Assembly (NCBI GenBank): GCA_021904315.1
Contig: CM038911.1
Coordinates: 22,417,390 to 22,481,389 of the forward strand
Length of the DNA stretch: 64,000 bases
Reading direction: 5' to 3'
From: Sphagnum magellanicum
Lineage: Eukaryota > Streptophyta > Sphagnopsida > Sphagnales > Sphagnaceae
The translations under genes and the position numbers were made by a program. The stretch's first letter is position 1. Each line of letters opens with the position of its first letter. The notes under the pieces are model-generated. The model did not search any database and had not been told where the DNA came from. It saw only the letters and a program-made list of their open reading frames with translations. Below, in pieces: positions 3,760 to 49,781 of the stretch.

Positions 3760-6300
3760 AAGCTTTATTCAAATTCAAGTGGCCATTCTCCAAAGATTGG
3801 ACTTCCTAGAGGATGGCACTCCCAAACTCCATAGTGGATTTCAATTGCCTCCATTTTTCCTTGTACATTCTTCAACTCAACCAAAGTTTTGAAATTGTAG
3901 TGATCATTTGTTCTAACAACATTAAATAAAACATGTAGTATTTCAAAAGATTTCATCCACTTGATTATGAGGATGGAATTAATGGAATGGATAGTGCGGA
4001 TGCAAGTTGTGTTTGAATGGGATTCTTGGAAATTGAAACTCGAAAATGCATTCCGTAATTCTTCAACAATCAAACAAAGGGGTGAAAAGTTTGAAATCAT
4101 TAGGATAATATGACACATTTCACATACACTTCTCAATCATTTTTAATATGACACCTAAATCACATAAATAAATAAGATGGTTAATACAACTTTAAACCAA
4201 AATTGAATAGATTCAACCATGACTTGGACTCCTATGAAAAGCACCATTATCTTTATAATATATTTTGCATGTACCCATGTAGATTGCAAAATTTAAGCAA
4301 GATTCCATTGAAAAGTCTTCTTTCAAAATTGGATGCTACTTCATTAAGCAAAATTTCCAAGACTTCCAAGTCCTAGTTTCAAAATTAAGACATTTTGGTG
4401 TCTAACAAAGTTCATGTCCCAAAAATTTGGAGTTTCATAACTATTAAAGACATTAATCAAACCAAACATGTGAGTACACCATATAGTCCTCATTAAGAAC
4501 ATTTCAATTTGATGTTAAGCTTTTCAATTAAACATTGTTTTCTTTTCCAAATGGACATAATTCCTAAAAAATAGCTACTTTTTGAAAACGTGAGCCCAGT
4601 TTGTCATAGCCCTTTTCAAAATGTTTGTGATTAATTAAAGAATGTATTCAATTTGAACACAATTGCTCTCACCAAGCTTTGACCCAACTTGATTTGAGAC
4701 TACATTGTAGTTGTAGTCCCCAAAGGCGAAATGCAACTTGGGAGTCTTAAAAAAATTTCATTTTGATTCCCAAACATTCACCTGATCATTTGGGTGAGGG
4801 TTTCATCCCCACCATGTTTTAAGTTTCTTTCAACATGTTTTCTTGTCTATGCACCAAGCCCAAAGCCATAGTTGTGACATATTAAAATTGATCATGAGCC
4901 CAAGTTAAGGTCACGATGTTGTGGTGTTTTACAATTTTTTGGATTCGTAACTCCCCATAAAATTGACCTATTAGGACATTAGATTTTTTTTTATAGCCCT
5001 CCTAAATATATTTCCCACGTCATGTGAAGTTATTCAATTTGACACAATTTCCTTTCCAAATCAAATTCTAAATCATGTCACCTTGGTGTATTGCAAATTT
5101 TTGGGCCTCATAACTCCTTGTAAATGTAATAGACTAGGATTATTAGATTTTATTCTTTTGATTTCATCAAGAACTTTCCAAAGTTGTTTGAAGTTTCTCA
5201 ATCATACACAATTCTTTCCACTTTGACTGATTAATAATCATGTTGGTACTTTGTGTTTTGATTTTTCAAATAACTAAAATATCATTCAATTATGTTTTTA
5301 AAATGCAAAGCCATCACCTATAACTCTCATTGGAATCTTTCAAATGATACCAAGATCATTTAATTGAAACATGTTAAATTTTCAAACATCATTTAAAAAT
5401 TTGAAAACTCATTTTGAATGTTGTAACTTTAACCTTGGGCTCATGATTAAAGTAATATAAGACAAAGGAAAACCAATAAAGAGGAAAGCCATGTCATGCA
5501 CCCCTACATGTTCATTATGTGATCTTAGTGGTAATTTCCAATTTGCAACATTGAAATTCAAAACATAGGACATGTTCCCTAGTTTTCTATGATTATGACA
5601 AGGGCACAAAATCTCCAAGATGACTAAAATGAGTTGATGCACTTTATAAATAACCTTCAAACAACTTGATCGCACAAAACATGTAGGGAAAAAAAATTAA
5701 CTATGCAATTTGAATGGATATCAAATTTGAAACTCATCATGAACTCACATAGATTTCACCATGGATTGAACCCATGAAGAAGGAAATATTCTACATATAA
5801 TATATTGTGTAGTTCCCATGGGGAATACATTGAAATGAAAAGGATTCTAAGGACTCGCAAATCCATTATTAAAAATAATTTTCCCTCTGAATATCTCACA
5901 ATTTTGGAGTTTCATAATTATTAGATAGTTAACCAAATTGAACATACGAGTATACCATCTTGTAGCTTGTAATCATGTATTGATGTCTTCAATTATAAGC
6001 CACTTACTCCTCCAATTCAACTTTTAAATGATTGAAGTGTTTTTTTGGTAGTTTGTGTTTAACTTTTCAAGTGGATATAACTTTCAAGAAACAAGTATTT
6101 TTTGGGAAGGTGAGACCATTCACTTTTAACTCCCCTAGAGATCTTCCAACAATCCCAATATCATTTTCTTAACCTTATTTTTAATATCAAAATATCTAGA
6201 GGAATTCTAATTCCTATATTATAAATTCATGTTGGGAATCCTCAAAATGTTTTTCTTTGATATTCAAACATTTCCATTTTCCCAAGTGAATATGGCACTA
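3760..6300. repeat. Long degenerate internally repeated region
   Basis: Blocks recur in the same order about 1.46-1.55 kb apart. The phrase around 4425 (TTTGGAGTTTCATAACTATT then GAGTACACCATATAG) recurs around 5890 (TTTGGAGTTTCATAATTATT then GAGTATACCATCTTG). A later GGACATAATTCC...CTACTTTTTG block near 4552 recurs as GGATATAACTTTC...AGTATTTTTTG near 6070. A TTCAACCATGACTTG block near 4213 has a counterpart near 5757. Shorter related phrases lie near 4935 and 5090. It looks like ancient tandem or segmental duplication of noncoding repeat DNA, perhaps the non-coding part of a large LTR element. Confidence 0.45.
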
Positions 6301-6649
6301 TCGTTGAACTAAACCATGTGTTGGATTTGCATTCATTTCAATTTTTTATTAAGGTTTTAATTTAGCTTTATATTCCAAAAAGGACATTCATTGTGAGGGA
6401 TTGTGTCCATGGTGACCACACCATTTTGCAAATAAAGTTCAAAAATCATTTAATTACAATTGTGTTGCAACTACGTCTTTTAAAGTGCAACTTCTATGCA
6501 ACTACATTTTATAAATGCGTGATTTAATAAATAAATTTTCATGTTAGAAAATAAACTAGTTGTTCGATAATTGCACCATAATTCTAAATGTGTTTCATAT
6601 ATGATAATTTATATGCATTGTATTTACATATGTAGTTAATTATGTTTGA

Positions 6650-7240
6650 CTTTTTAAGGAATTGCATTGTAATTGTATTGTCATGCACGCCCATGGTTTC
6701 ATACATGATGGCCAATTACAGGCATGCCCATCATGCCTTTTAGGGTTAATGTATGGTCTTAGGTGATTATACGCTATTAGGTACTTAAGGTTTCAATTTG
6801 TTGGCGGCTATATAAAAGGCCAAGCCTTTCTTTTCTCTTTTTAATTTTTTTAGAATTCCTTTGTCAAGAGAGTTTCCTCCATAGTCAGATTGGATTTCTA
6901 GATGTTCATGGCGGCCACCATCTACATACATTACATGTTCTTCCTTCTTTGTAATTCAATTTTAGAAAAACTCTACTTTTTGTTGCTTCATGTTAAAAGC
7001 AATAGATTTTTTGTGCCTTTAAATTCTTGAATTATTGCTACTGAAGGCAGTGTAAGTTGTTATTAGTGTTGCTATTGGTGTTGCTGGAGGGAGCTTGTGT
7101 TGTTACATTTCTGCTAACCAGCAGAACAGGTTTCAAACTTCCTCCCCCCTTCTTTTTTTCTTTCTTGATTTCTTTCTCTCTCTCTTGCGTAGAGACACAT
7201 GAAGAGGCGATCTTGAAACTGCTGAGTAAAAAAAAAAAAA
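6650..7240 (+). promoter_or_regulatory. Candidate 5' LTR/promoter region of the gypsy relic
   Basis: A canonical TATA motif (GCTATATAAAAGG) lies at about 6807-6819, followed by a pyrimidine-rich leader, the arrangement of an LTR promoter upstream of a gag leader. Its position, 1.4-1.7 kb before the first gag-like codons, fits the 5' LTR plus leader of the element that follows. I found no matching copy downstream of the element and no convincing tRNA primer-binding site. The LTR assignment is therefore inference; it could be an unrelated promoter. Confidence 0.3.
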
Positions 7241-7244
7241 AAAT

Positions 7245-7680
7245 TGCTTTTCCACGCTGCGCTGTTGGCCATCGTTGTAGCGCACTACTAGCCATTGTCG
7301 CATCATCGTAGCATTGCGAGCTGCAGCGCACTATTGGCCATTGTCACATTGCTGTAACGCCACAAGTTGCAACATGTAACCGACCATTGCCATAACATTA
7401 CGAACTGGAGTGCGTTGTTGGCCATCGCCATAGTTTTGCGAGTTGTAGCGCGTTGTTGGCCATCGCCATAGTGTTGCAAGCTACCGACGATCGTCGCAGG
7501 GCTGCAAGTTGTCGGCCATCATTGTAGTGTCGTGATCTCCTGGCCATCACCGTAATGTTGGGAGCTGTAGTGCAGTGCCATGAGCTACAACACGTTGTCG
7601 ACCATCGCTATAATGTTAGGAGTTGTAGTGTAGCACTGCGAACACAGCCGCCCGCCATTGTTGTAACGGCGTTTGAGCTA
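7245..7680 (+). repeat. Degenerate tandem repeat, TTGGCCATCGCCATAG type
   Basis: About eight imperfect units carry the core phrase GGCCATCG(C/T)(C/T)(A/G)TAG followed by TTGCGAGCTGTAGCGC and GTTG. Spacing is mostly 40-60 bp. It is much richer in G+C and CpG than its surroundings. It lies immediately before the second periodic tract and upstream of gag, so it is probably part of the retroelement leader. No frame is consistently open. Confidence 0.6.
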
Positions 7681-7685
7681 TGTTC

Positions 7686-8140
7686 GTTCGACATTAGTCG
7701 GACTCTTGGGGACTTCTAGTCGAACCCTCGTGGGACTTCTGGTTGGACTCTCGTTAGATTTTTAGTGGGACTTTTGTCAGACTTCTGGTCAAAATCTCGT
7801 CGGACTTTCATTGGACTTTTGTCGAACTTCCGTTCGACGTCTGTCCAAGTTTTGTCAGACTCTTGTTCGACTTTCGTCCAACCTCCATCAAACTTTCATC
7901 GGACGTTTGTCCAATTTTCGTCGGACGTCCATCTGACTTTCATTCAATTTTCATTCGACATCCGTTCGAATTTCGTCCAACTTTTGTCTGATTGTCGTCT
8001 TGCATCCTGCGTTCTACCATCCTGTGTCCTATTATTTTGCCATATTGCCTTTCCATCTGATGTCCGTTTGACTTCCGTCCAACCTTCGTTTAGCCTTCGT
8101 TCAATGTCCATTTAACCTTCGTCCGATGTTTGTCTATCAC
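7686..8140 (+). repeat. Short-period TCGGACTTCCGTTCGAC-type tract
   Basis: About 450 bp of an imperfect 12-13 bp motif of the form (T/C)CGNACTT(T/C)CGT. One plus frame stays open from 7765 to 8115, but its Ser/Phe/Val-rich product simply mirrors the repeat, so it is not called as a gene. It lies between the preceding repeat and the gag-like region of the gypsy relic. Confidence 0.6.
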
Positions 8141-8479
8141 TAGTCATTCTTGACGACAGACCGTATTCTTCAAATTGTACGTTGTGTTCAAACTTTGTAG
8201 CTAGTGCTTTGTATTAGTACAAAATTTGGGGCATGGGACAACACCATGTCCTCAGATGATGAGAGCACTACCGCTCAGCCAAAGGCCAGGTATTAGCTAC
8301 GAAGTAGCACATAATCCTTTGAACCGATTTTTTCAAATTCATAATCTTCACGACGGTAGTAGTAAGTATCTGTAGCACCACCGTCATCCATTAAAACTCG
8401 TACTAGGAATTCAGGTTCAAGTTACATTACATCAACGGTACATCAGAGTCCATTTGGAAGGGCTCATTAGTGGGGTACG

Positions 8480-10300
8480 CATGTTGCCACACCGGCTTTC
8501 ACACCATCACTGTATATTCCGTTGCAAGTAATTACCTTTACACCCATATACACCATAGAGGTTAGTAGTTCCTCTGGGATAATTGAGAAATTTAGCAAAA
8601 GGCCATGTACTATTTCTTTGAGGGAGTTCAAGGCAACTTTCTCAACTGTGATCTGTGAATTGGAACTCAAGTATGGCGCTAATTACACCGAGGCGTTCAC
8701 ATTGAAGCAACTGGCCCGTTATGTGCACTATGAGGCATTGGATGTCTACGAGTAGCATTCTCCAAGAATTTCGGGTGTCGCCAAGATCTCCAATCCAACT
8801 TATGCCATAGCCATTACCACCGCCTCTCAAGCTGCACTACAAGCTACCATTGCACATCATGGACTATGCCCAATAATCCAGATTTGATACCTATTTTAAT
8901 AAACTTTTCTCCTCAACAACTCATTGTTGCTACTACAAACATTCCTCCCACCATCGATGCACAAGCTTTTGCTAATCGAGTGGGGGAGTTTTTTTAAGTT
9001 CTTGAATTAGAATTTTCGATTAAGAGTTTTGAAAAAATTCTACAATTTGCCATTTTCTCTTGGCAAAAGGATGAAACCCTTCAGATGCTTTAGAGGAAAC
9101 TTTTCAAGCTTAAAGAGGATACTCAAAGCATCACAAACCTAGAAGCTGCCCATTGGTATCTTCATTCATTAAAAGGTACTCCGACATTCCATGCGGAGGT
9201 CTTGCAACGAATTTTTGCAGAATTTGGAGACTCGTAACTTTGTTGGATGTGTACAATATTTTTGAAAAGCTAGAACTGGCTCATGCACACTATGAGGCTA
9301 ATACTATGAGGCTTCCTTCACGTTCAAGGCTTTAGCCTCCACCAGTTGCGCCAACCAGATCATCACATTCTTCTTCAAGGGTTAAAGAAGTGCACTAGGT
9401 TGCACCCATCCTACCTTCTTACAACTACTATGACAATCCTGCCCACAAAGTAAGTGAGTGCAATATTCCTTCTAAGGATTTCTTTTGTGATTACTGTGGG
9501 AAAGAGGGACATTAAGAAGTTGTTTGTTTTGTTAAGTTCCCGAAAAGGAAACAATTTTGATTACCACTGCAAAATCTTCTAGCATCTTTCGCTATCCTTC
9601 AACCAAAAGCCAAGGCACCTCAGCCTTCCACTCAAGTTTTCCCCACCAAGGGTAATTTTAGTAAGAATGCTAAAAAGAAGGAGCACAATGCTGACAAAAG
9701 GGAGGTGCTTCAAGCCCATGCCACTGAAGTTCAAACTTTGCAAAATGAACTCGAATCATTGAGGGCCCAACTTATTAATCTAAAAGGCAAGTCCTCCCAA
9801 CTAGCTAGTCATGCCCAACGTGTACAAGGTTCAGGATCACAAGAGGGACCTCCTAGGTCGTTCTATGGCCTCCCACATGATGCCATGCTTGGGGAGTATG
9901 TTCTTTCCAGTGCACACAATTGTAATTTCACACCAGAATTTGCTATTTCTTTTTGCCCTTCGTATGTTGCGGCATAAGAGGCTAGTGTGCCACCTAGAGT
10001 TTTTGCCACTAGGCAGGTAATTCAGACTAATGGGCTCGCATCTGGTTCAAGTCCTATTACCAGGGCTAGAGGAGTTCGAGCAATCATGCCACAATCTTTT
10101 CGTCCTTTCAACACAAAAGAAGAATGCAACTTGTTGGCGAGGGGGAAGAAACTACTACACCACAAGCTATTAAGGCATAAAATTCATGTGTCCCAGGAGT
10201 ACATGTACATCAGGAAAACACACAATTTTCCACTGATCAGCTTATGGAATGCCAACTTCAAATGCGTGAAGTGGTGCAAAAGCTTGTGAATACACTGTTG
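8480..10300 (+). pseudogene. Gag-like region with CCHC zinc knuckle and coiled coil (broken)
   Basis: Gag would form the RNA-packaging particle. Readable blocks include an open stretch at 8522-8755 (rich in LELKYGANY and LKQLARYVHYEALDVYE-type helices), a helical stretch near 9120-9330, and a retroviral-type knuckle at 9486-9527 with Cys-X2-Cys-X4-His-X4-Cys spacing. A TAA sits directly after the knuckle His. A Leu/Glu/Gln-rich heptad segment at 9705-9800 predicts a short coiled coil. Several frame changes and stops interrupt it, and the start codon cannot be fixed (an ATG at 8249 is soon followed by a stop). Assignment rests on the knuckle and on position before protease. Confidence 0.6.
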
Positions 10301-10599
10301 TTTAGTTTTCAAGATTTGAAGCTAAGCACCAGGGACATAATTACAATACTAGAGGATACCCTGAACATTACATTAGGTCCTCTACCAATCCCTGATCCAC
10401 ATGCTATAGAGGTCCCATCCAACACCTTGGAAAGACATTCAATTGGTTCACGTGTTGCAAATGGCATTCGTAATTTGGTCATTAGTTCTAGCATGACTAA
10501 ACTAGTGGGCTTTCCTATTTCTGATTCTAAATTCACATATCAGAAGGGAGTTAAAAACACCTCACTTGTGGATTTGTTACTCAACAAAGGTGTTGTGGA

Positions 10600-11260
10600 T
10601 AACCATTATTTCCACAAAGGCTCTCACTCATTTCTGAAGGTGGTGTCTAATGAGAAAACTTCCATCGCCACTGGAGTTGCCATTGTCGACAATATTGGGT
10701 CAGCAATCCAAGTGGGAGGACATACACTTAGAGTGGTACTTCTTGATACAAGTGCCCAACTAGTGATTCTTGGAGTTCAATTTGCCAAGAAGATGGGCAT
10801 GCTTGACTTTAAATTATGAAAATCTATGTGGCAGATTCGCACCGCTAGTGGGACCATAGAGGAGGTATTTGGGAAAAGCTCGGATTTGATTACATTTAAC
10901 TTCAATGAAGGTACAAATCAGGAGCTTTGCTTACATGTCAGATGTTTAGTCACCAATGCCATTAGTTATGATGTGTTCATTGGGTAGGAAGCCCTATTTC
11001 CACCAGGTTTCACAATTGACAACTGGTTTGAACATGCGTACTACCGAATGGATTAGGAGACTAATGACCACCATTTGGGATACATACCTTTTGATTTACA
11101 TGGGAACCATAGTCCTAAGGCTCACCATTATATGCTCAAGGAAACACACACTATTTTTTACATCCAATAAGTTAACCACAAGTGGATAGAGGGAGATGAA
11201 GAGGAAACAGCTTACGCCCAAGCTACTGAAAGCTTGAAGGTGGTTTCCTACTGACATTCA
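10600..11260 (+). pseudogene. Retropepsin-like aspartic protease region (broken)
   Basis: This would be the polyprotein-processing protease. The active-site loop reads L-L-D-T-S-A-Q at about 10,741-10,761 where the family has D-T/S-G-A, so the usual Gly is Ser. It follows a beta-rich stretch and precedes an I-L-G-type segment. An in-frame TGA falls at 10,817 and several more follow, including a TAG in the Y-D-V-F-I-G segment near 10,985 that otherwise matches the second half of retropepsins. The frame then runs, with stops, toward the methyltransferase domain. Host cellular aspartic proteases are excluded by the single short domain and the gag/pol context. Confidence 0.55.
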
Positions 11261-11402
11261 ACACAGACCAGAGGTTTTATAGAGGTTCAAAGCAGCCCAC
11301 GAGGTTTTGGTCAAAACTCTGTCTAGTTTTGAGAACATGGAGAACCATGGTGAACCAATTAAGCCAGTACTTTGTCAATTAATCGCCTAGACACCACCTA
11401 AG

Positions 11403-12281
11403 GAAGGGATTACATTACTAGAGCTTTTTGGTGGTATTGGTATAGGTCTCGAAGCCCTACTATAGTTAGGGATGGTGGTTTGGAGGTATTTCTACATAGG
11501 CATTGATCTTATTGCAAGGCAAATGGCGACATCGAGAATGATGGAGTTCACAGCTAGATTTTCACAACAGTTTTCAACCACTGCATGGAAGGCTGGTTTC
11601 ACTTTCTTGCCCTTTGACATACAACTAATTCAAAAGAAGCCTATGGAATTATTTGGCCTCGTGGACCTCGTCATTTCAGGTTGGGAGTGTCAAGGATTTT
11701 CAGTGGCTAGATTTGGAGAAGGCTTGAGTGACACAAGATCCGGTCTTTTCATGGACATGGTATGATTGATCACCTAGGCTCAATCCATTTTTCCTACACT
11801 TGGTTATGTAATTGAGAACACCCCTTCTTAGCTTGACCAAAAGGAGAAAGTCCAAGAGCATCACACACTGGTCAAACATTACCTTGGAGAGCCCCTTGTA
11901 CTTGATGCAACACAATGCGGTTCCTATGCGCACTGGTTGCGTAATTGGTGGAACAACCTGGCACCACTCTCAGTTCTACAGCTGGCTCTGAAATACACCA
12001 TAAGAGACCCCAACCTGTAAGTTTTTCACATATTGGATGATTAGAGCTATTGCCAACTAGTTACAAGGCAAGAGAAACCTCCTTGGTTTTTCATAAATGT
12101 AATAGGAAAACCAAGAGGTGCTTGGCCCACCTTTGTTTCCTTCCCAGGAGCACACGCCTTTCAAGGGGATGGACCATGCCTAGTGTATTGTCATGCTTTA
12201 GCCACTTGGGATGAACCAAGCCCAAAAGAAAGAGAAAGGGCTATGGGGTTCCAAGTTAGCATATTAGTCACACTAAGGTGA
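11403..12281 (+). pseudogene. DNA (cytosine-5) methyltransferase-like domain inside the gypsy pol region (broken)
   Basis: One frame of 292 codons carries C5-methyltransferase motifs in order. Motif I is E-L-F-G-G-I-G-I-G at 11,421. A Cys-Gln motif IV, G-W-E-C-Q-G-F-S, lies at 11,679-11,702 with the catalytic Cys kept but the usual Pro replaced by Glu. It is followed by an R-S-G-L-F segment. Motif VI is I-E-N-T-P-S near 11,811-11,828. A D-A-T-Q...R-N-W-W motif VIII-like segment lies near 11,905-11,950, and R-E-R-A-M-G-F-Q near 12,232 matches the conserved C-terminal part. In-frame stops lie at 11,463, 11,763, 11,775, 11,829, 12,018, 12,042 and 12,279. Such enzymes move a methyl group from S-adenosylmethionine to cytosine C5. 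The domain shares the element's strand and lies between protease and RT. The subfamily is unresolved. Confidence 0.8.
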
Positions 12282-12484
12282 CTAGATTAGAGCGTAACGC
12301 TCTACTAAAGAGAAGCATGGACATGAACTCCCTTACATGGTTGTTGGTAACCTGTGTATTCTTTCAAATGTACACAACACTAACACTGATTTAATCAGCT
12401 TGTAGTTCTGGCGATGTGATCACATGGCACCTTGACTAAGTACATTTACCTATTTTCAACACTCTACATTTCACTCTTAATGTT

Positions 12485-12497
12485 GGGGGGGAGGAGG
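12485..12497 (+). other. Polypurine run between methyltransferase and RT regions
   Basis: A run of seven G followed by AGGAGG lies about 200 bp before the RT-like codons. Retroelements use polypurine tracts to prime plus-strand DNA, normally next to the 3' LTR, so an internal one could be a secondary tract or chance. No function is demonstrated. Confidence 0.3.
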
Positions 12498-12675
12498 TAC
12501 CATGTAATTTGACTCAAGTTGTGTCTGATACACCTGGAGGTACTTCAGTTTCTGGAGAAACAATTATTACCTTTTACAAATCTGCGTAGTTGGATAGTGG
12601 AAAACCCAATACACCAAGTTCTTCAAACACATTTTCCAATTCCATTCCATGTGTTTCCAACTACCTTTTCATTAT

Positions 12676-12935
12676 GGGTTACCAGCTCACCAAGAAGGAA
12701 AGAGACCAGGTCACAGATTTGTTAATTAAGTACAAGAATGTGTTCGCATTCTCAATGAAAGACTTAGGTAGGTGTAAGACCATGCAGTTCTTTATAAACT
12801 TTACAAATGAGACACCCGTCTATCGGAGGAGGCATAGGTTGAGCAAGCATGAGTGGGAACTAGTAGATGAAAGATCCAAAGAGCTCCATGAAGTTGGTCT
12901 CATTCAGCCATCAAGTTTTGATTTCGCAGCCAAAT
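12676..12935 (+). pseudogene. Reverse transcriptase N-terminal part, catalytic core deleted
   Basis: The open stretch begins M-G-Y-Q-L-T-K-K-E-R and contains the gypsy RT entry region: T-P-V-Y-R-R-R-H-R, then a long helix with L-H-E-V-G-L-I-Q-P-S-S. At about 12,930 the sequence jumps directly into the linker before RNase H. Fingers and palm, including the Y-X-D-D catalytic motif, are absent. The same frame is open until 12,973 but its last codons no longer match RT. The element therefore lost on the order of 150-200 codons by internal deletion. Confidence 0.75.
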
Positions 12936-13165
12936 ACGGCCCTTGCTGTTGTATGGGTCGTCATACATTTTAGGCCCTATCTTTATGGCACCAATTTCAT
13001 TTTGTATACCGACCATCAGCCTATCAAGTGGTTGATGACCAATGATAAGCTTACTGGTAAGTTAGTTCGTTGGGCATTTATACTTTAGGAGTATGAGTTC
13101 AAGGTTATTCACCGACCTAGTATTACACATTAGAACGCGGATACCATGTCATGGAAACCCCTCAT
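12936..13165 (+). pseudogene. RNase H domain of gypsy pol (partial)
   Basis: The region reads A-L-A-V-V-W-V-V, then F-I-L-Y-T-D-H-Q-P-I-K-W-L and a V-I-H-R-P tail, the signature of the Ty3/gypsy RNase H-like domain that degrades template RNA. A TAG falls where the family has the Leu-Gln-Glu-Tyr-Glu segment (near 13,087), and the H-Q-N-A-D segment has TAG in place of the Gln codon. The domain starts abruptly at the RT deletion, so its N-terminal strand is missing. Confidence 0.75.
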
Positions 13166-13284
13166 TACCTTTGAAGATTTCTTAGAAATCAGGCAAGACT
13201 TCGACTAAATTCCAACAATACATGTATTTGATGCATTTAGTTATTTTGCACTAGTACAATGTAACTTGGTTGAACATCCCGTTA

Positions 13285-14180
13285 TGGATATATGGGAAGA
13301 CTTGGACACTTTGAGGTTTCTTCAACATGGGGAATACCCTCCCCAAGTTACATCAAGTCAGCAGGATCACATACAACAATGGTCCAAACGTTACTCATGA
13401 CGGGACAATCACCTCGTCTGATGCTTACCACAAGGCGACAAAGTGGTCCCTCCACCACACAAACGGTTTGGTCTTATTTAAAAGGTATATTCAGAGCTTG
13501 GACACTTTGGAGTTAAACGTATTTATAGCTTTCTCACTCCTCATTACCATTGGAGAGGCATGTATGCTCAAGTCCGAGACGTCATTGCTAGGTGTGAATA
13601 ATGTGATAGATTGAGAATTTACTTCTCCTTTCGATAGTTCACGCTTTCTCCACTCCCTATTCATGGCATGTTTTATCACTGGTCATGTGATTTAGTTGGA
13701 GAGTTACCATAGACCTCCAGGGGTAATGTCTACATCATGATTATGATTGAACATTTTTCAAAGTGGGTCGAGCTTGTTGCATTACCAAACAAGTCATCAC
13801 ACAACACCAGCCAGGCTTTCTTATAACAAGTTTTAAGTAGGTTTGGGGTTTGTGTTGAGTGCCTTACTAATCAAAGATCAGAATTCAGGGGAGAATTCCA
13901 AGACCTACTTGACCATGTTCTCATTGACCATCGACGGATCTCAAAAGATCATCCCCAAGCTGATGACCTTGCAGAAAGGATAGTTCAGACATGCAAGAAG
14001 GGACTTCAGAAGATTTGCTTCACTAGGAACAAAGAGGATTGGGACTTGGCCCTCCCTTACATCGCCATGGGTTACAAGATGTCCAAACACGCCTCTTTGT
14101 CTCATTTGTCTCCTTATTTTCTACTTTTTGGGAGACATCCCATTCCAACCTTCTTCCATTGTTGTTCAAATGGATTAGGT
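13285..14180 (+). pseudogene. Integrase of the gypsy element (broken)
   Basis: A His-His-Cys-Cys zinc region is readable near 13,490-13,600 (H-F-G-V-K-R, then H-Y-H-W-R-G-M, then A-R-C-E and C-D-R). The DDE core follows: first Asp in the W-S-C-D-L-V-G segment near 13,685; second site reading N-Q-R-S-E-F near 13,875, where the usual Asp is Asn; Glu in A-D-D-L-A-E-R near 13,970. The L-S-P-Y-F-L-L-F-G-R-H-P block near 14,110-14,150 is typical of the end of gypsy integrases. TAG, TAA and TGA stops interrupt it repeatedly. It continues in frame toward the PHD finger. Confidence 0.75.
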
Positions 14181-14181
14181 T

Positions 14182-14583
14182 GTGGACTTAGACTTTCTAT
14201 CCATTTGGGCTAGGGTCATCGCAGATAGGGTTGCTCTATTCAAGAGGGTTATGCCCATGGCCATGGAAAACTTGTCCATTGCACAACATCAAGACACCTT
14301 ATGGTATGCACACACACGAGGTGGCAGTTACAAACCTAAGGTGAAACAATTTGATGTTAGTGATTTTGTGTATCTCCAGTGACAATCTAATAATACTTTA
14401 AACACTTCTTCTGGTCGCACTATCTTGAGGATTAAGGTGATCAAGCCTTTAGGTGTGTTGGAGTTGCAAGGAGTTGATAGACACACAATTCAAGATCACT
14501 CCAAATACTGTGCACCTTACCACTTGCCGAACTTGGATCCTACCATCATCACGTCGATTTGGATTCCTCCACGTGATTATCCA
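14182..14583 (+). pseudogene. Integrase C-terminal extension linking to PHD finger
   Basis: The frame from 14,182 is open for 66 codons and includes a Y-K-P-K-V-K-Q-F-D-V-S-D-F-V-Y-L segment, which matches the SH3-like region at the end of gypsy integrases. After a TGA at 14,380 the frame continues with L-G-V-L-E-L-Q-G-V-D and a Pro-rich stretch into the cysteine cluster. No chromodomain aromatic cage was recognised. Together with the next feature this looks like a C-terminal targeting tail. Confidence 0.5.
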
Positions 14584-14718
14584 TGTCAGGTATGTTAGAA
14601 GACAGATGATGTTGATTAGATGTTACTTTGCAATAACTGTAATGGTGGATACCATCTTTTATGCCTCAAGCCGAAGCTCACTCAAGTTCCCATTGGCAAT
14701 TGGTATTGTTCATCATGT
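14584..14718 (+). pseudogene. PHD zinc finger fused after integrase (two stops)
   Basis: The frame shows C-Q-V-C, two stops where residues should be (14,596 and 14,617), then M-L-L-C-N-N-C, G-G-Y-H-L-L-C, an L-T-Q-V-P-I-G-N-W-Y-C turn and C-S-S-C. This is the complete C4-H-C3 cross-brace of a PHD finger, with Cys at 14,584 and 14,593 and the last Cys at 14,716. PHD fingers read histone H3 tail states. Being in frame with the integrase tail and ending at a TGA at 14,734, it probably formed the polyprotein C-terminus and could have steered insertion to chosen chromatin. A host PHD gene is unlikely given the continuous frame. Confidence 0.8.
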
Positions 14719-14760
14719 TTTCCTGCAGCACCTTGATTTCTATTTAGACCATGCCACATT

Positions 14761-17243
14761 TTTTTCGGCTCAAATCTAGGGTGGAATACATGAGAATTTC
14801 ATCTCAGCCTCCTCTTGTGCATTGTATATATATGTGCGTGCATCTCTTTTTGATATAATAGTTTCTACCTTTGATTAGTTTTAGTCTTTTTGTTTAGTAG
14901 AGTTTATTATGGATTTATACCTTTACGACATCGTATGTCACGACACTACATGTCACGACAGTATAAGCAACTAAGTGAAGATTGTTAGAAACGAGTTACA
15001 CATTGAACAACTTTTTACAACTAGTATATAACTTTCATACACGTGATTACGCCATGTCTCCACATTCTTAGTGTCCATGGGGTACAAGTTTAAAATAAAT
15101 AAAAATGAAAACAAAATGATTTTGGAATGGTTCAACCAATGTTGGGGTGATTCTTTCAATTTTTGTAACATTAAAGGTTTTCAAAAAATGGTTTTCTAGC
15201 TGATTTTTTGATTTTATCATATTTTTGAAAACCACGGTTACTTACCAAAATTAGTTTTTGAATTTTTTGAAAAAAAATAAAAAATGAAAATTGAGTTGAT
15301 AATCCATGGGTATCTATCCTTTAATTCCAAAAATGATGGAGAAAAATTGAAAAGCCAACTAATTTTTTAATTTTTTGAAAAACAAATTCAAGTTGTGAAA
15401 ATTCACTAAAAAGAAAACATGCTAATGTTTTAGAGTGAAGGAATGCTTAAGCCTTTTTACTAGTGAATTTGTTGCATTTGATGTCAATAGGTAATACAAT
15501 AACATGGCTCTATTGAGAAGTTGGGATTAGTATTATTATTGTGTTTGAAGTTCTTGATCCTTTAGTCCTCATGATGATGAGATAAAGAACATGTTTTTGA
15601 TTTTCAAAAAAATTTCTTATATTAAAATTAGAGAATTTTACAATAATACCACTTGATAAGATTGGGCTGTGTCATTAACATGAAAGGCTGTTCCCATTTT
15701 ATTTATGAAAAGGTGATCAATTTGGATGAATTGAGGGAAGAAAATGATCAAACCTAAAAATTGAATCAATGTTGTGAATGTAAATGGTTTTAAACCTATG
15801 CTCAGTGCAGCTGTGAATGACATAATGGGATTTATTCACACAACACATAAATGTAAATGTAAAACAAATAAACTTACATAGTTTTACATTGCCATGTAAA
15901 ACAATTTTAAAACACGTAATTTTGAAGGGGTGGTGAGGGAATGTGGGTGTAATGTTTGGTCAAATTCTTTTGGGGGAATGCACCACAAATAATTAAATTA
16001 ATTAATATGAGTCACAATAGGTACCGAAGCTGTTGTAAAAGCAAGAGCCAAAATCTGTTCATGAGTAAACTTTAAAATAGAAATTCTATTCATGGTATGA
16101 GGTGAGGTAGCATGTAACCAGGATGCCTTCAAGAATGTGCACTCAAAATATTTTCCAATAACTTAGCACCATAGTTTGTCCCATTTGCTTAAAATTGTGC
16201 ACTTTACATATTGTATATAAGTGAGTTGAAGGAAACATTGTCATGATATTATCTTGATAATAAAAGCTTTTATTTGGAGAGTATTAAAAATATTAAACTT
16301 TTTATTTGAAGAACCAATCATAGCAACCCATTGCAAAAAAGAAAAAAACAACCAACAACATTGAGTTTAGAATGCATGCATAACTATTTAATGTGGATTG
16401 CAAATAGGTACAATCACTTAGGTTACATAATAAATACATTGGCACATCTCAAATTGTTTACATGACATCATGTAAATATATTTAACAATCACTTATACTG
16501 CTAAAGTATAAGTGTACGAAAATTAAATAAACATTACTTGCAATATATATAAGTGTAAGTGTAATGGGTAGGGTCATGTTCCACGGTTTTTATATGCCTA
16601 TTTACACTTATATACACAACATTAGTAGAGACTCATAAGGCATCACAAAATCAACAATTCATTGCACTTGTTTAATATTTGCCCTTTCGTTCACCCTTGA
16701 ACAAGGGGGTGAGGGATATATGTTATTACATTTTATACTGACCTTCGAAAGACTCACTTGAATGAACCTCATGAGTCCTAGTAGTTCTGTAGCACTTGAA
16801 TGCAAATGATGACTAAAGGGTTACCTACTTCTTCTATGCCCTAATGTAGCGACCTACTAAAGACCCACTTCCATAAACTACTACTGACAAGTGGACTTAA
16901 ATGTTATTTAAGTTTTGCCACTGAGTCAATGACTAACTAATAGTAATATCCAGGTGTCAAATCATTAGTGGCAGTTTTTCACCATAGATATCTCTGTTAT
17001 ACCTAACCAAGGGAAAATCTTATGGCTATAATTGGTAGTGTGGACAGTGGCCCTTGAGAATTTCCAATACTTGGAAGCTATAATAAGTGTAGGGTAACAC
17101 CCTTGGAGTAGTGGAGTTCCACAACAAAGTATCCCTCTGCCTTGGGTGGGTAGCTTACTTTCAAAACTCTCCACAAGGTGGAGGTGTTGGGAACTCCTGC
17201 CCTTCCCCTGAAGGGCAATACTGAGTATACAATTCCACATGAT
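14761..17243. other. AT-rich spacer downstream of the gypsy relic
   Basis: A short cluster of TGTCACGACA-like repeats lies at about 14,930-14,962, just beyond the polyprotein end. A TGTTAGAAACG sequence at 14,981 could be the start of a 3' LTR, but I found no upstream copy to pair with it. The remaining 2 kb is AT-rich with no recognisable gene, splice-linked frames or RNA gene. Confidence 0.4.
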
Positions 17244-17390
17244 TTTAAAATTAATTTTTTTTCCCATGATAGCCAATGGGTACTAACCAAATATAACATA
17301 AATTTCTTTGAAATACAAGATTTAAAATTAAAATTTTTTTCCCACAATACCCAATGGGTACCAACTGAGTATCACAGGAATTTCTTAACA
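17244..17390. repeat. Two tandem units of about 77 bp
   Basis: Each unit starts TTTAAAATTAA, runs through T-rich sequence to CCCA(T/C)(G/A)AT and CCAATGGGTAC, and ends AATTTCTT. Unit starts are at 17,244 and 17,321. The unit is noncoding; open frames across it are by-products of the repeat. Confidence 0.65.
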
Positions 17391-17969
17391 AAACAACGCC
17401 ACTTCAAAAAAAAAAAAAAAAAAACAGAATCCAAGTGCATGAGCATCTTGTTTTCAGAAGTGCCCCCCACCGGGTTTTATGATCTGGAAGCATACCTCCA
17501 AATACACTAAGAAAAATCTCAGAAGTTTTTAAGCTTTCAATACTTGCAACCCAAGAGTAGAAAGAAATTACATTAAAATACAATACCAACCCAGCTACAA
17601 ACTAGAAACTACTGTGCATCACAAGTCCGGCCAATTAATAAGTTCAGCCGAATTTTGAGTTAAGAGCGGGAGCAAGGGTACTTACTACTGGCTTGATCTG
17701 ATGAATAATAACTTTGAAGGTAGCAGCAGCAGAGCAGGGCAGTTGCAACTTGCAGCTTACCAATTGTATGTTAATTAATGATTCCTTGACCGCAACAACC
17801 ACTCCCTGCTTTATAACTTAATTACAACGCTGCGCAAGGTGCACCCCTCCTCCTCTACATTCGCTGCCACCACCATTATTGTGCTGCATGTGGGGAAGCG
17901 AAAAAGAGCCTCTAGACAGGCTTCACCAGCTCACTAATGCGGCCATAATGATCGTGATCACGGCCCAGA
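17391..17969. other. Spacer, no gene seen
   Basis: It contains a long A run near 17,408-17,424 and otherwise mixed sequence. Short open frames have no domain content and no splice partners. Confidence 0.45.
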
Positions 17970-18349
17970 GTGAACCTTCAACCGGCACCAACCAGCGCAC
18001 CATGAAGGATAGATGGATGGCAAGCAGTCGGGAAACAGTTTTCTGTTGGGTTCCAGTTAACCCAGCTAACCATGGTGGTTAGCTCAGTTGCTTCTTTTAT
18101 TATTACCTACCTACTAACAGCCCGCAAGCAGGTTAGTAAGTAGTTGGTAAAAGTAGCCCTTATAAGTGTATAAATCATCTACTTTCATGGTAGTCATCTA
18201 TTTTCTTCCCTATCTATCTACATACAGCACCTACTTCTTAAAGAATGGGTTACCAAGTTGAAACCAGATAGTAATTCAGTTGAGGTTCATCCACAAGTGA
18301 ATCATAATAGACATCCAGTGGATGGTGTACTGGTGGGTGCTGGTTCACT
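17970..18349 (+). mobile_element. Small TIR element, family A, second full copy
   Basis: It aligns over its whole length with 1475-1796: a GTGAACC...GCACC(A)ACCAGCGCACC start, AAACAGTTTTCTGTT, the AGCTAACCATGGTGGTTAGCT near-palindrome, CTACCTA-rich middle, TTACCAAG(T/G)TGAAACCA, and end TGGGTGCTGGTTCAC. The last 17 bp are duplicated directly to 18,367. No coding capacity. Being shared between sites 16 kb apart, it is a dispersed family rather than a local duplication. Confidence 0.65.
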
Positions 18350-19368: not shown

Positions 19369-21438
19369 ATGGGAAGAGTCTCGCGCGTCTTGTATGTGGT
19401 GGTGATATTAGTGGTACTAACAACGGTGGTGCAATGTGTGGGAGCGGAATCTCTGAAGCGCACCTTCCTGCAGCCGGCCCCAGATTTGATTAAGGAGATT
19501 TTTCCGCTCTCGAATTTGACGAGACATGTCGTCGATCGTGTGCAGCTCGCTGACTGCAAGTATGAGACAACGAAAGATGACGATGTGAGTAGTTGTGGGC
19601 TGTTTGTTTTGAGGGACATTCATGTGTGCACGAAGCTCTGGAGGTATCATGCCGTCTTTACTGGTGCAATAGCTAGCTTCATGACAGGATTTGAGCAGCT
19701 CTCCGTTCCCATGGTCCAGTCCCACGTTACCGTGCAAAAACTAAGTTGCTTGATGATCCTGTGTTGTATGATCTCTTGCAGGTGGTTCGTGTTCGGCTTA
19801 TGCACCGAGATCACCCGGATTCTCCTTTCAGTTCTTCTAGCAGCAAAAGCTTTCAAACGCGGTTTGCCGAGGCTTTGCAAAGGAGTTATTCTCGTGCCGC
19901 TTACTTGGGAGAGAAAATGAGAACCCCAGCTTCCGCCAGCGCCCAGAACAAATTTGAAAGCGCAGTCTCGGCGGGCACCGGAGAATATCTCATGTCGCTG
20001 TCTCTTGGAACTCCTCCTCAGCAATTCGCTGCAATAGTCGATACTGGTAGTGACCTGAATTGGGTGCAGTGCTTGCCGTGCAAAGTCTGCTATCAGCAGA
20101 CAACCAGCAAGTTCGATCCTTCGAAATCATCAACATTTCACGCCGTGCCTTGTACGAACCAGTTGTGCCAGGTACAAGTTTTAGGTGCAAATCTCCATAT
20201 GTTGCATACTTCTGAGAGTTAGCCCAGCTGTCTCTTCTCTCAGTTTTGGATTTCCAGCTACATCAGACCTGATGTGCGTGGTGCTCACCTTCTGATCTTC
20301 TTACAGGCCCTTCCGGTTCAAGGATGCGCCTATGCAGCCTGCCAGTATGACTACGTATATGGCGATCAGTCGAGCACTTCCGGTGAACTAGCTTTCGATA
20401 CCATCTCTCTAAGGAATGGCGGCATTCCTGAAGGCATCCCAAATTTTGCTTTCGGCTGTGGACACTCGAACCAAGGCACGTTTGCTGGTGCTGGTGGGCT
20501 TGTAGGACTTGGGCAAGGTCCTGTGTCTCTCATATCTCAGCTCAGCTCAACGTTTCCCAATAGATTCTCCTACTGCTTGGTCAACTTAAATGCGGCCGCC
20601 ACCACCACCAGCGCACTTCTGTTCGGGAATGTGGATGTAGTTGCTGGCGTTCAGTATACTCCTATCGTCAGCAACCCTCTACACCCTACCTACTACTATG
20701 TTCAAATGGTGGGTATCAGCGTGGGAGGAAACAATCTTGATATCGCTGCAAGCACTTTTGACATCGACAGTTCCGGCGCCGGTGGAACAATCTTGGACTC
20801 GGGAACCACCATTACTATGCTTACTCTGCCTGCCTACGAAGCCGTTTTAACGGTGAGAGACGCATAGGCTGCCAACTAGCTCTACCCATTTGTGTTGTGT
20901 TGTTCGTCCCATACACAAATGTTTATTGCATGGAAATCCTCGGCAACATGTCCGTCCCGGCAAGAGGAAGCTGGACATAATACCCAGACATAGAGATTCT
21001 ATTTTGCTCTATTTTGTGAGTGATGCAGAATGCAACGAACTAGCAGCAACAACAGCATCAGCAGCAAATCCTGTGCTTTGCTATTCACCAGTCCTAATGA
21101 TTTTCTGATCCTGTTTCTCACGGATGCAGGCTTTCAAGGCACAGATCACGTATCCTTTAGTCGATGGTACTCCATACGGACTGGATTTGTGCTTCGACAT
21201 TGCAGGTGTTACCAACCCTACAGTTCCAGAAATGTCATTCCAGTTCCAGGGTGAAGCAAACTTCCAGCTCCTTCCTGAGAACCTGTTTGCCATTGTCGAC
21301 ACAGCCAATACTGTGCTCTGTTTGGCTATGGCAGGCAGTGAGGGCTTTAGCATCATTGGCAACATTCAGCAACAAGATCATCTGGTGATCTACGACCGGG
21401 TGGCTCAAAGGATCGGCTTTGCTGTCACCACTTGTTAG
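19369..21438 (+). CDS. Nepenthesin/CDR1-type aspartic protease, 4 exons
   Basis: Predicted 486 aa secreted A1B-type aspartic endopeptidase. Exons: 19,369-19,584; 19,782-20,171; 20,307-20,852; 21,130-21,438, all joined in phase 0 at GT-AG sites. The chosen ATG opens a signal peptide (M-G-R-V-S-R then a Val/Leu/Ile core); in-frame ATGs at 19,108 and 19,309 would bury it. The propeptide contains L-M-H-R-D. The catalytic loops are D-T-G-S with Asp about 159 and D-S-G-T with Asp about 366. The Cys-rich C-L-P-C-K-V-C insertion and F-A-F-G-C-G are typical of plant nepenthesins. The C-terminus has I-I-G-N and I-G-F-A. Length suits the family. Relatives act in the apoplast in defence signalling or protein turnover; the actual substrate is unknown. 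A 10-bp hairpin (CACTCTTTCT/AGAAAGAGTG) lies in the 3' region at about 21,494-21,519. No break is seen. Confidence 0.93.
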
Positions 21439-48527: not shown

Positions 48528-49781
48528 TCACGAGAATGCTGTGAAACAGGACGTGCTGCTGCAGCAGCTGGAATCAGACACTGACGGCGATGGAAGCTGG
48601 AGCTGACCAGAGTTGTTGTATCCTAAAAGTTCCTCAATCATCTCCGAAGCGAACTTATCTTCCTCACTCATACAACTCTCGGCACTGGATAGTTCAGGCT
48701 GTAATGAAGACGTTGTGGAGTTGCAGCAGCTTGATCCGAACTCGACTTTTCTCAACCAGTTCGCCTGATCTGAGGTCTGCCTACCTGTCTGTTTCTGCCA
48801 GATCCCAAGGTTTGATTGCTCAGCATCCAGGCACAAGCATGTGAGAGACTGTTCCATTCTGGTGTCATTAATGTTGTTGGCCTCCTCCTGCTGCTGCTGA
48901 TGCTGCTGCACATGATTTTGATCCTGAGCATCCTGCTGAGACGCTAAGTACCAACGATGCAGCTTTGCACTCAGAGTTGCGGAAAGCTTCTGGAATTTGG
49001 GGCTTTGTGGAGCATTCGGGTCCAATGGGAAATTCGTGCGTGCCCGTATACCACACATGAGTCGAGCAGCTTCGTCGTAAGCGTGAGCCGCATCCTCGGC
49101 TGTTTCGAAGGTTCCTAACCACACTCTAGTCTTCCTGCAAAACCCCGCGGCACCCAACCCCGGAATATATAATCATCCGCGAATCAGCAAAAACACTAGT
49201 CATCTGCTCTCGATCGGCCGGGAAGTTGTGACAATGACTGCAGCAATATCTACAATGTTTAGTGAAAACAATTGTCGGACTGCAAGAACTCGTCTCAAAT
49301 ACTTGCCAGCCTCACGTTGCTGCAGCATTCATCGATTGAACGACTGTGACAAAGCTAGGTCTACGAAGAATCCAGAGTCTAAGTACCAGACAATCACTAC
49401 AATCTGAAATAAATATAATTTCGGACGGAGGCGCTATAACAAGCTGCTGCATTAAAGCTGGATCATATAACTAAACAACGGGAAATCTCAAAAACTACAC
49501 TTGAAAGCGATAGAGCTCCACACCGGAGTTCTGCACAATGCATTTATACAAAAACAGGTCAACCGTCACACAGTTGCAGCAATGACCTGCATAGAGTAAA
49601 GCTAGATCCAGGACCAGGAAGACGAATCTCAGCAAGCTAGCTAACTATACATAAGCTGCACCTAAAGGAGAAATGCAGCAGTAGAGGATCAGGGAATATA
49701 CAAGAGAGGATGTCGAATCTCCGATACCCAAGAGCCCCAGTGCCTCTGTCGCACTCCCCTGTATCTCTGAGGTCGTCCCAT
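48528..49781 (-). CDS. SHN: AP2/ERF transcription factor, SHINE/WIN1 clade, 2 exons
   Basis: Predicted 228 aa nuclear activator. Exon 1 is 49,781-49,702 (80 nt), exon 2 is 49,134-48,528, with a 567-bp phase-2 GT-AG intron. The single AP2 domain spans about residues 7-63: [21 protein letters not shown], then [15 protein letters not shown], ending R-T-N-F-P. The intron splits the domain after H-P-L-L, the position used by SHINE genes. A short middle motif L-S-A-T-L-S-A-K-L follows, then a Gln/His-rich linker and an acidic C-terminus with M-I-E-E-L-L. SHINE factors bind GCC-box-like sites and activate cutin and wax genes. The ATG at 49,781 sits directly before the domain, as in relatives. No break is seen. 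Other ERF subgroups lack this intron. Confidence 0.93.

Follow-up and report, generated by a model that had tools for sequence, protein, structure and literature searches.

The closest described system is KnitGypsy-Dnmt3 of the charophyte Klebsormidium nitens (de Mendoza et al., 2018; PMC5890265), which in that account has a Dnmt3-class domain, free of the DRM-type rearrangement, within the Pol ORF of an LTR-Gypsy element and with a Ka/Ks below 0.2. Its gypsy domains are combined with repeats that the legend to Fig. 4 of PMC5890265 describes as "the same as that of a DIRS retrotransposon". In yeast the domain gave no activity, a result its authors called inconclusive, and the charophyte element is viewed there as acquired independently in the lineage of K. 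nitens. The same source describes two dinoflagellate elements, SymbioLINE-Dnmt and SymbioDIRS-Dnmt3, and for the latter de novo CG methylation was demonstrated. Chromodomain gypsy elements and the Tudor gypsy elements of Ectocarpus carry a chromatin reader C-terminal to the integrase (PMC12477816), and an orchid Ty3/gypsy element carries an m6A RNA demethylase in an extra ORF (PMC9289625). According to a 2019 hypothesis paper (PMC6338049), DNA-methylase transposons are absent from land plants "such as tracheophytes", and their loss is the basis of an argument made there.

Here we analyze a 64,000-nucleotide stretch of the Sphagnum magellanicum genome (the window) that holds a decayed gypsy element with a cytosine-5 DNA methyltransferase (MTase) domain. 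Like KnitGypsy-Dnmt3, the Sphagnum elements combine gypsy domains, an unrearranged Dnmt3-class domain within the polyprotein and DIRS-like repeats; unlike it, as judged from the published description, they occur in a land plant, give more than 100 matches in one genome, have an E-C-Q active site and bear a PHD finger, a word absent from the main text of PMC5890265. They resemble SymbioDIRS-Dnmt3 and SymbioLINE-Dnmt in being retroelements that bear a DNMT, but those are DIRS and LINE elements, whereas the Sphagnum elements are gypsy elements with a DDE integrase. As in the chromodomain and Tudor elements, a chromatin reader lies C-terminal to the integrase, although here it is a PHD finger accompanied by a DNA-methylation writer. 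Like the orchid element, they are land-plant gypsy elements that have captured a modification enzyme, although the orchid enzyme is an RNA demethylase in a separate frame. Among the papers listed by our literature search, whose coverage of subscription journals and preprints was thin, we found no bryophyte case and no PHD-bearing one. The elements belong to a known kind, the DNMT3-bearing gypsy element, and widen it in three ways: a land-plant host, a polyprotein tipped by a PHD finger and an E-C-Q site that recurs. A first-pass annotation of the window had placed such elements in a few algal and protist lineages; that limit does not hold, as named relatives occur in mosses and liverworts.

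The copy in the window

The window contains a Ty3/gypsy-type insertion of 8,282 bp (6679-14960; all element features given here are on the forward strand) with outer ends TGTCATG...CACGACA. Flank comparison finds GTAT on each side (6675-6678 and 14961-14964) as a target-site duplication. Below, L numbers denote MTase-bearing loci of the same genome and P numbers database proteins. At the 5′ end lies the remnant of a terminal repeat, A (6679-6930, beginning TGTCATG), matched by the A repeat of L012 at 6699-6757, 6757-6908 and, weakly, 6912-6930 (E = 0.047); at the 3′ end lies a terminal repeat, B (14786-14960), 85% identical to that of L012. Between the A repeat and gag, at 7300-7886, lie short degenerate repeats of two families (37-38 nt).

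Coding pieces of L009 align to the window with 64-85% identity overall. They delimit a decayed gag-like region at 8531-10324 (72-82% by tblastn), a retropepsin region at 10325-11203 (81% over 293 aa), the C-terminal remnant of RNase H at 12924-13145 and a decayed integrase with H2C2 and rve regions at 13146-14370 (76-81%). A Pfam search with the L009 gag piece returned no gag family match. The L009 protease piece matches PF13975 (E = 1.1e-7), the open part of the window protease reaching E = 0.046, short of the cut-off, and the L009 integrase piece matches PF17921 (6.7e-16) and PF00665 (5.7e-12). Alignment with L012 and L009 leaves an N-terminal remnant of reverse transcriptase (RT) at 12563-12931. 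The RT core is deleted at about 12931-12941, where the match jumps and L012 carries 926 bases, and 893 of 1074 aligned RT-RNase H bases are absent from the window copy. The first-pass annotation had placed the MTase between retropepsin and RT/RNase H; the protease does lie upstream, but this copy has lost the RT core. The polyprotein ends in a PHD finger, a feature additional to that annotation, at 14584-14718, where it carries two internal stops; the L009 PHD piece aligns to 14521-14733.

The MTase, with an N-terminal linker, spans 11247-12463 as delimited by tblastn with L009 and by PF00145. With stops read as X, the window frame matches PF00145 at E = 1.8e-7 (31.3 bits, cut-off 22), and TIGR00675 at E = 1.6e-7 but with 31.3 bits against a cut-off of 100.65. 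Because the domain is 82% identical over 337 aa to that of L009 in its own genome (plus 64% over 81 aa in a second frame) and has 257 matches at E ≤ 0.01 in the protein database (best 4.4e-151), its likeness to MTases, on sequence comparison, is far above chance. Motifs I, IV, VI and VIII lie in one frame in canonical order, with a C-terminal G-F-Q block, as the first pass had read them. By translation, motif IV is G-W-E-C-Q-G-F-S (11679-11702), motif VI is E-N-T (11814-11822) and the motif VIII region, which falls within a match to the DNMT3A profile, is A-H-W-L-R-N-W-W (11913-11966). Motif X (12260-12349) is instead in the shifted frame; its weak match, to DNMT3A 245-285, is the third stretch (i-Evalue 0.3) of a whole match of 6e-25. 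The 292-codon frame at 11403-12281, previously taken as open, has six internal stops and is closed by a seventh. Nor does the domain end at 12281, as the second-frame match reaches 12463. The two matches lie in different frames and overlap at 12221-12257, so a frameshift cuts the window MTase.

The ordered motifs I, IV (with its Cys), VI, VIII and X and the significant PF00145 match place the domain among cytosine-5 MTases, although the Pro-Cys dipeptide of motif IV is absent from the window copy, which has E-C-Q. The profile check that the first pass had called for thus proved significant, for the C5-MTase family as for DNMT3A. DNMT3 outscores the tRNA enzyme Dnmt2 (6e-25 versus 1e-6), DNMT3-DNA complexes rank first in fold comparison, DNMT3 is the nearest among solved C5-MTases and the motif order shows no DRM-type rearrangement. 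Profile and fold point to DNMT3 as the class of the domain, which in the better-preserved relatives looks able, by prediction, to methylate DNA.

With six internal stops, a frameshift and no RT core, the window copy is dead. At protease, MTase and integrase sites where 13 copies agree, 104 of its 170 changes are C>T or G>A, and change rates are 0.20-0.29 at CG and CHG versus 0.06-0.12 at CHH. The pattern suggests the expected trace of host CG/CHG methylation followed by deamination; it fits the host pathway and is uninformative on the element's own enzyme. Elsewhere in the window, 19695-20867 (forward strand) and 48528-49172 (reverse strand) appear by eye to be host genes for an aspartyl protease and an AP2/ERF-type protein. 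Rfam at gathering thresholds gave no match in the window and ARAGORN found no tRNA in it. Viral and genome contig collections, from which records of this or very near genomes were possibly excluded, yielded no related locus.

Copies and repeats in the same genome

A search of the assembly (438,994,042 bases in 31 contigs) with the PF00145 profile at E ≤ 1e-3 gave at least 124 matches. A few are host genes, among them L024-L027, which by eye, from their translations, are three DRM-like genes and one MET1/CMT-like gene. Eleven of the matches lie within open frames of at least 1,000 codons, and in ten of these the matched part is free of stops. We read 19 retroelement loci, 16 of the window's type (family A) and three of a second type (family B); the ten-kb loci were picked because their frames were long or their scores high, a choice that favors young copies. 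All 13 ten-kb family-A loci have the order protease-MTase-RT-integrase-PHD. The short family-A loci (3.2-3.3 kb) show parts of it: protease-MTase in L006, MTase-RT in L007 and gag-protease-MTase-RT in L008. The three family-B loci, L021, L022 and L023, have the same order, with about 3.6 kb separating protease and MTase in L023. The family-B MTase has the canonical P-C-Q and E-N-V residues and shares about 40% identity with that of family A.

In L009 a single frame of 2,379 codons covers the whole polyprotein, so open-frame copies exist; this is a paralogue of the kind that the first-pass annotation had proposed to look for, with gag, protease, MTase, RT and integrase in one frame and the PHD finger in addition. 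Pfam matches to its pieces are PF13975, PF00145, PF00078, PF17917, PF17921, PF00665 and PF00628. The order protease-RT-RNase H-integrase with an rve integrase places the better-preserved relatives in Ty3/gypsy, the window copy being without its RT core. The claim that a C5-MTase forms part of a Ty3/gypsy polyprotein is borne out by the 13 family-A and three family-B loci, all of which carry it between protease and RT. Mean dN over mean dS (NG86; 78 pairs from 13 family-A copies) was 0.39 for protease, 0.22 for MTase, 0.27 for RT-RNase H, 0.16 for integrase and 0.10 for the PHD finger; the pairs are non-independent, and stops in several copies raise the ratios. Constraint on the MTase is about equal to that on RT.

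The layout of the repeats was read in seven family-A loci whose stretches contain the 5′ A repeat as well as the 3′ end. Four (L012, L014, L015 and L028) have a long form: A1 (~311 bp), coding region, G-run, B1 (~178 bp), GC, A2 and B2. Three (L009, L017 and L018), like the window copy, have a short form, A-coding-B, without A2-B2. Outer ends of the long form are TG...CA, with 4-bp duplications CAGC, GTTC, CAAT and ATAT; those of the short form are CTCT (L009), GGTT (L018) and GTAT (window), so that seven of the eight loci read have a 4-bp duplication, the exception being L017, where none is clean. A1 and A2 differ at 3/315, 4/311, 3/311 and 10/309 bases in the four long-form copies, and these insertions are therefore recent. 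The short form could have derived from the long form by recombination between B1 and B2. L010 has B1-A2-B2 on its 3′ side, and in family B the B1-GC-A2 junction of L021 is as in family A, with the start of B2 at the edge of the stretch. In L019, both A repeats (1-270 and 9152-9427) are inverted relative to the remainder of the element.

Elements of the DIRS/PAT type have split direct repeats in the layout A1-ORF-B1-A2-B2, together with a tyrosine recombinase. The same layout is present in the four long-form copies and, in part, in L010 and L021. Unlike DIRS/PAT, the Sphagnum elements have a DDE integrase and 4-bp target duplications; the Pfam matches of the L009 and L021 pieces include no tyrosine recombinase, with rve and H2C2 matches instead. 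Two identical long terminal repeats were found in none of the seven family-A loci, long or short. A repeat search of the window at 5000-18000 likewise gave no LTR pair, because the family has split repeats and the window copy retains one A and one B.

Relatives and the active site

Named family-A relatives are P0086 of Sphagnum compactum (80% to L016 over 241 residues) and P0092 of S. balticum (90% to L011 over 242). Database searches extend the wider relatives, not every one of which passes the Pfam cut-off, to the liverworts Marchantia polymorpha and Calypogeia fissa, the mosses S. troendelagicum, S. jensenii and S. fallax, the algae Closterium, Haematococcus and Monoraphidium, a protein labelled Chrzof1, which we take to be from Chromochloris, and to metagenomes and many unlabelled proteins. 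P0137, labelled as a protein of a bacterial MAG (Candidatus Obscuribacterales), falls within the retroelement MTase set and probably comes from a misbinned contig.

Forty-four proteins have both MTase and RT matches. The MTase precedes RT in 13, from Marchantia, Sphagnum, Closterium and unlabelled proteins, and follows it in 31, from Chromochloris, Monoraphidium and unlabelled proteins. These chlorophyte-type proteins (P0197, P0225 and 29 others) have, where Pfam was run, the order RNase H-MTase-integrase; P0197 reads RT-RNase H-MTase-integrase-PHD. For 28 polyproteins, MTase and RT trees have 14 of 25 splits in common and the two sets of distances correlate at 0.58, a value reached in 0 of 500 permutations; the MTase therefore moves together with its element. 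A quick tree of 88 rows, made after 7 of 88 candidate rows (mostly Marchantia near-copies) had been excluded, groups the window with L009 and P0192 (SH-aLRT 99) and family B with liverwort elements (99), and both families fall inside one 45-row set (99). When DNMT3A, DRM and bacterial outgroups were included in a careful tree of 40 rows, the DNMT3A row being partial (39% of columns) and on a very long branch, the result differed: family A was placed, weakly (86/13), next to the class with RT before MTase.

How many captures lie behind the two orders? DNMT3 may have been captured twice, between protease and RT in the bryophyte-type and Closterium elements and between RNase H and integrase in the chlorophyte-type ones, or else once, long ago, and then relocated. 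The existence of both orders speaks for two events, whereas the PHD finger at the C-terminal end in members of both types and the splits common to the RT and MTase trees speak for one; the outgroup trees, with the partial DNMT3A row, accept either (AU p = 0.52 and 0.32). We regard two captures as a serious possibility, if somewhat the less probable one.

The first-pass annotation had singled out Glu-Cys-Gln as unusual. The residues stand, in the window and in other copies, but they are not the oddity of one copy. Among the 120 of 257 matches listed, 94 proteins cover motif IV: Cys is present in 91, and the position before it is Glu in 86 of the 94, K in 3, G in 2, D in 2 and R in 1. Motif VI in the listed matches has Glu in 79/89 (Lys in 8/89), Asn in 89/90 and Thr in 82/90; motif VIII has His in 71/75, and its two Arg positions are R in 50/75 and 40/74, otherwise mostly Q, W, C or H. 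Some of the listed ORFs probably come from dead copies, which may be the source of the motif VI Lys and motif VIII Arg variation. In the wider relatives whose match is long enough (101 of 119), Cys follows P in 68, E in 28, A in 1, D in 1 and a gap in 3, and 18 of the 28 E-type relatives have E-N-T instead of E-N-V. The quick tree requires at least nine changes between E and P, with six independent pairs on supported branches. Judged by this distribution, the Pro-to-Glu change is a family trait that recurs in wider relatives. We know of no other C5 methyltransferase with an E-C-Q / E-N-T active site.

The PHD finger matches PF00628 over the whole profile (window 9.6e-12, with stops read as X; L009 9.3e-12; L021 1.2e-8). 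PDB relatives of the L009 finger (best match 3e-16) include the PHD fingers of KMT2D, MLL3, KDM5, WSTF, KAT6, ATXR5, AIRE, BAZ2 and UHRF1, several of which bind H3 tails with unmodified K4. By analogy, the finger may parallel the ADD domain of DNMT3.

Possible roles of the methyltransferase

The window copy is almost certainly an old, degraded copy of a Ty3/gypsy-type element whose preserved relatives encode gag, protease, a DNMT3-class MTase, RT, RNase H, a DDE integrase and a PHD finger, with the MTase under purifying selection. What might such an element do with the enzyme? The first pass had suggested that it methylates its own or host DNA, which we retain as the proposed function. In our model, the protease would free the MTase, alone or with RT, inside the virus-like particle, and the MTase would methylate cytosines of the newly made double-stranded cDNA or of DNA beside the insertion. 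The PHD finger would read the histone H3 tail and steer or tether the integrase, so that histone reader and DNA-methylation writer might cooperate like the ADD and catalytic domains of animal DNMT3. A pre-methylated copy would resemble silent host DNA, escape detection as naked cDNA and do the host less harm; once inserted, it would be silenced by host CG/CHG methylation and decayed by deamination. We propose this combination of self-marking and PHD-guided integration tentatively, at slightly less than even confidence; as a whole, the account of the element together with the model is, on balance, probably the best explanation. Against the model stand the Glu next to the catalytic Cys, the occasional motif VI Lys, the variable motif VIII Arg and the negative yeast result for the KnitGypsy-Dnmt3 domain, which its authors called inconclusive.

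The Glu and the variable motif VIII Arg raise the possibility that the ECQ-type domain no longer transfers methyl groups and is kept for another task such as nucleic-acid binding, scaffolding of RT and integrase, or shielding of cDNA, only PCQ-type domains being enzymes. The loss would account for Glu beside the nucleophile in most listed family-A relatives and over a quarter of the wider ones, and for the E-N-T of most of these E-type wider relatives; however, Cys, motif VI Asn and motif VIII His are kept among the listed relatives, the MTase dN/dS is low, and repeated E/P switches fit a tolerated variant better than one loss, and we consider this reading unlikely. It is also conceivable that the target is RNA, either element RNA or primer tRNA, as RNA methylation has been suggested for the LINE-borne DNMT (PMC5890265); since the profile favors DNMT3 over Dnmt2 and DNMT3-DNA complexes lead the fold comparison, this seems very improbable. 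A host MTase fragment that landed by chance in one gypsy copy could fit the window copy alone, stops included, but is virtually out of the question, being refuted by the same order in every ten-kb family-A and every family-B locus and opposed by the relatives in other species. Beyond our preferred model of self-marking, the elements could belong to an ancient and still active clade, common to green algae and bryophytes, of gypsy elements with a DNMT3 domain and a PHD tip. Its members would combine histone reader and DNA-methylation writer in a single polyprotein and so insert copies that they have methylated themselves, some of them by means of a distinct E-C-Q / E-N-T site that evolved repeatedly; this larger picture is rather doubtful.

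MTase-bearing elements abound in peat moss, some of them young, and show purifying selection; named relatives occur in liverworts. The moss thus offers a workable system for asking why a retrotransposon carries a class of enzyme that silences retrotransposons, and the presence of ECQ and PCQ types in one genome provides natural pairs for testing the active site. If the model is true, the element may mark its own new copies through its MTase and a histone-reading finger.
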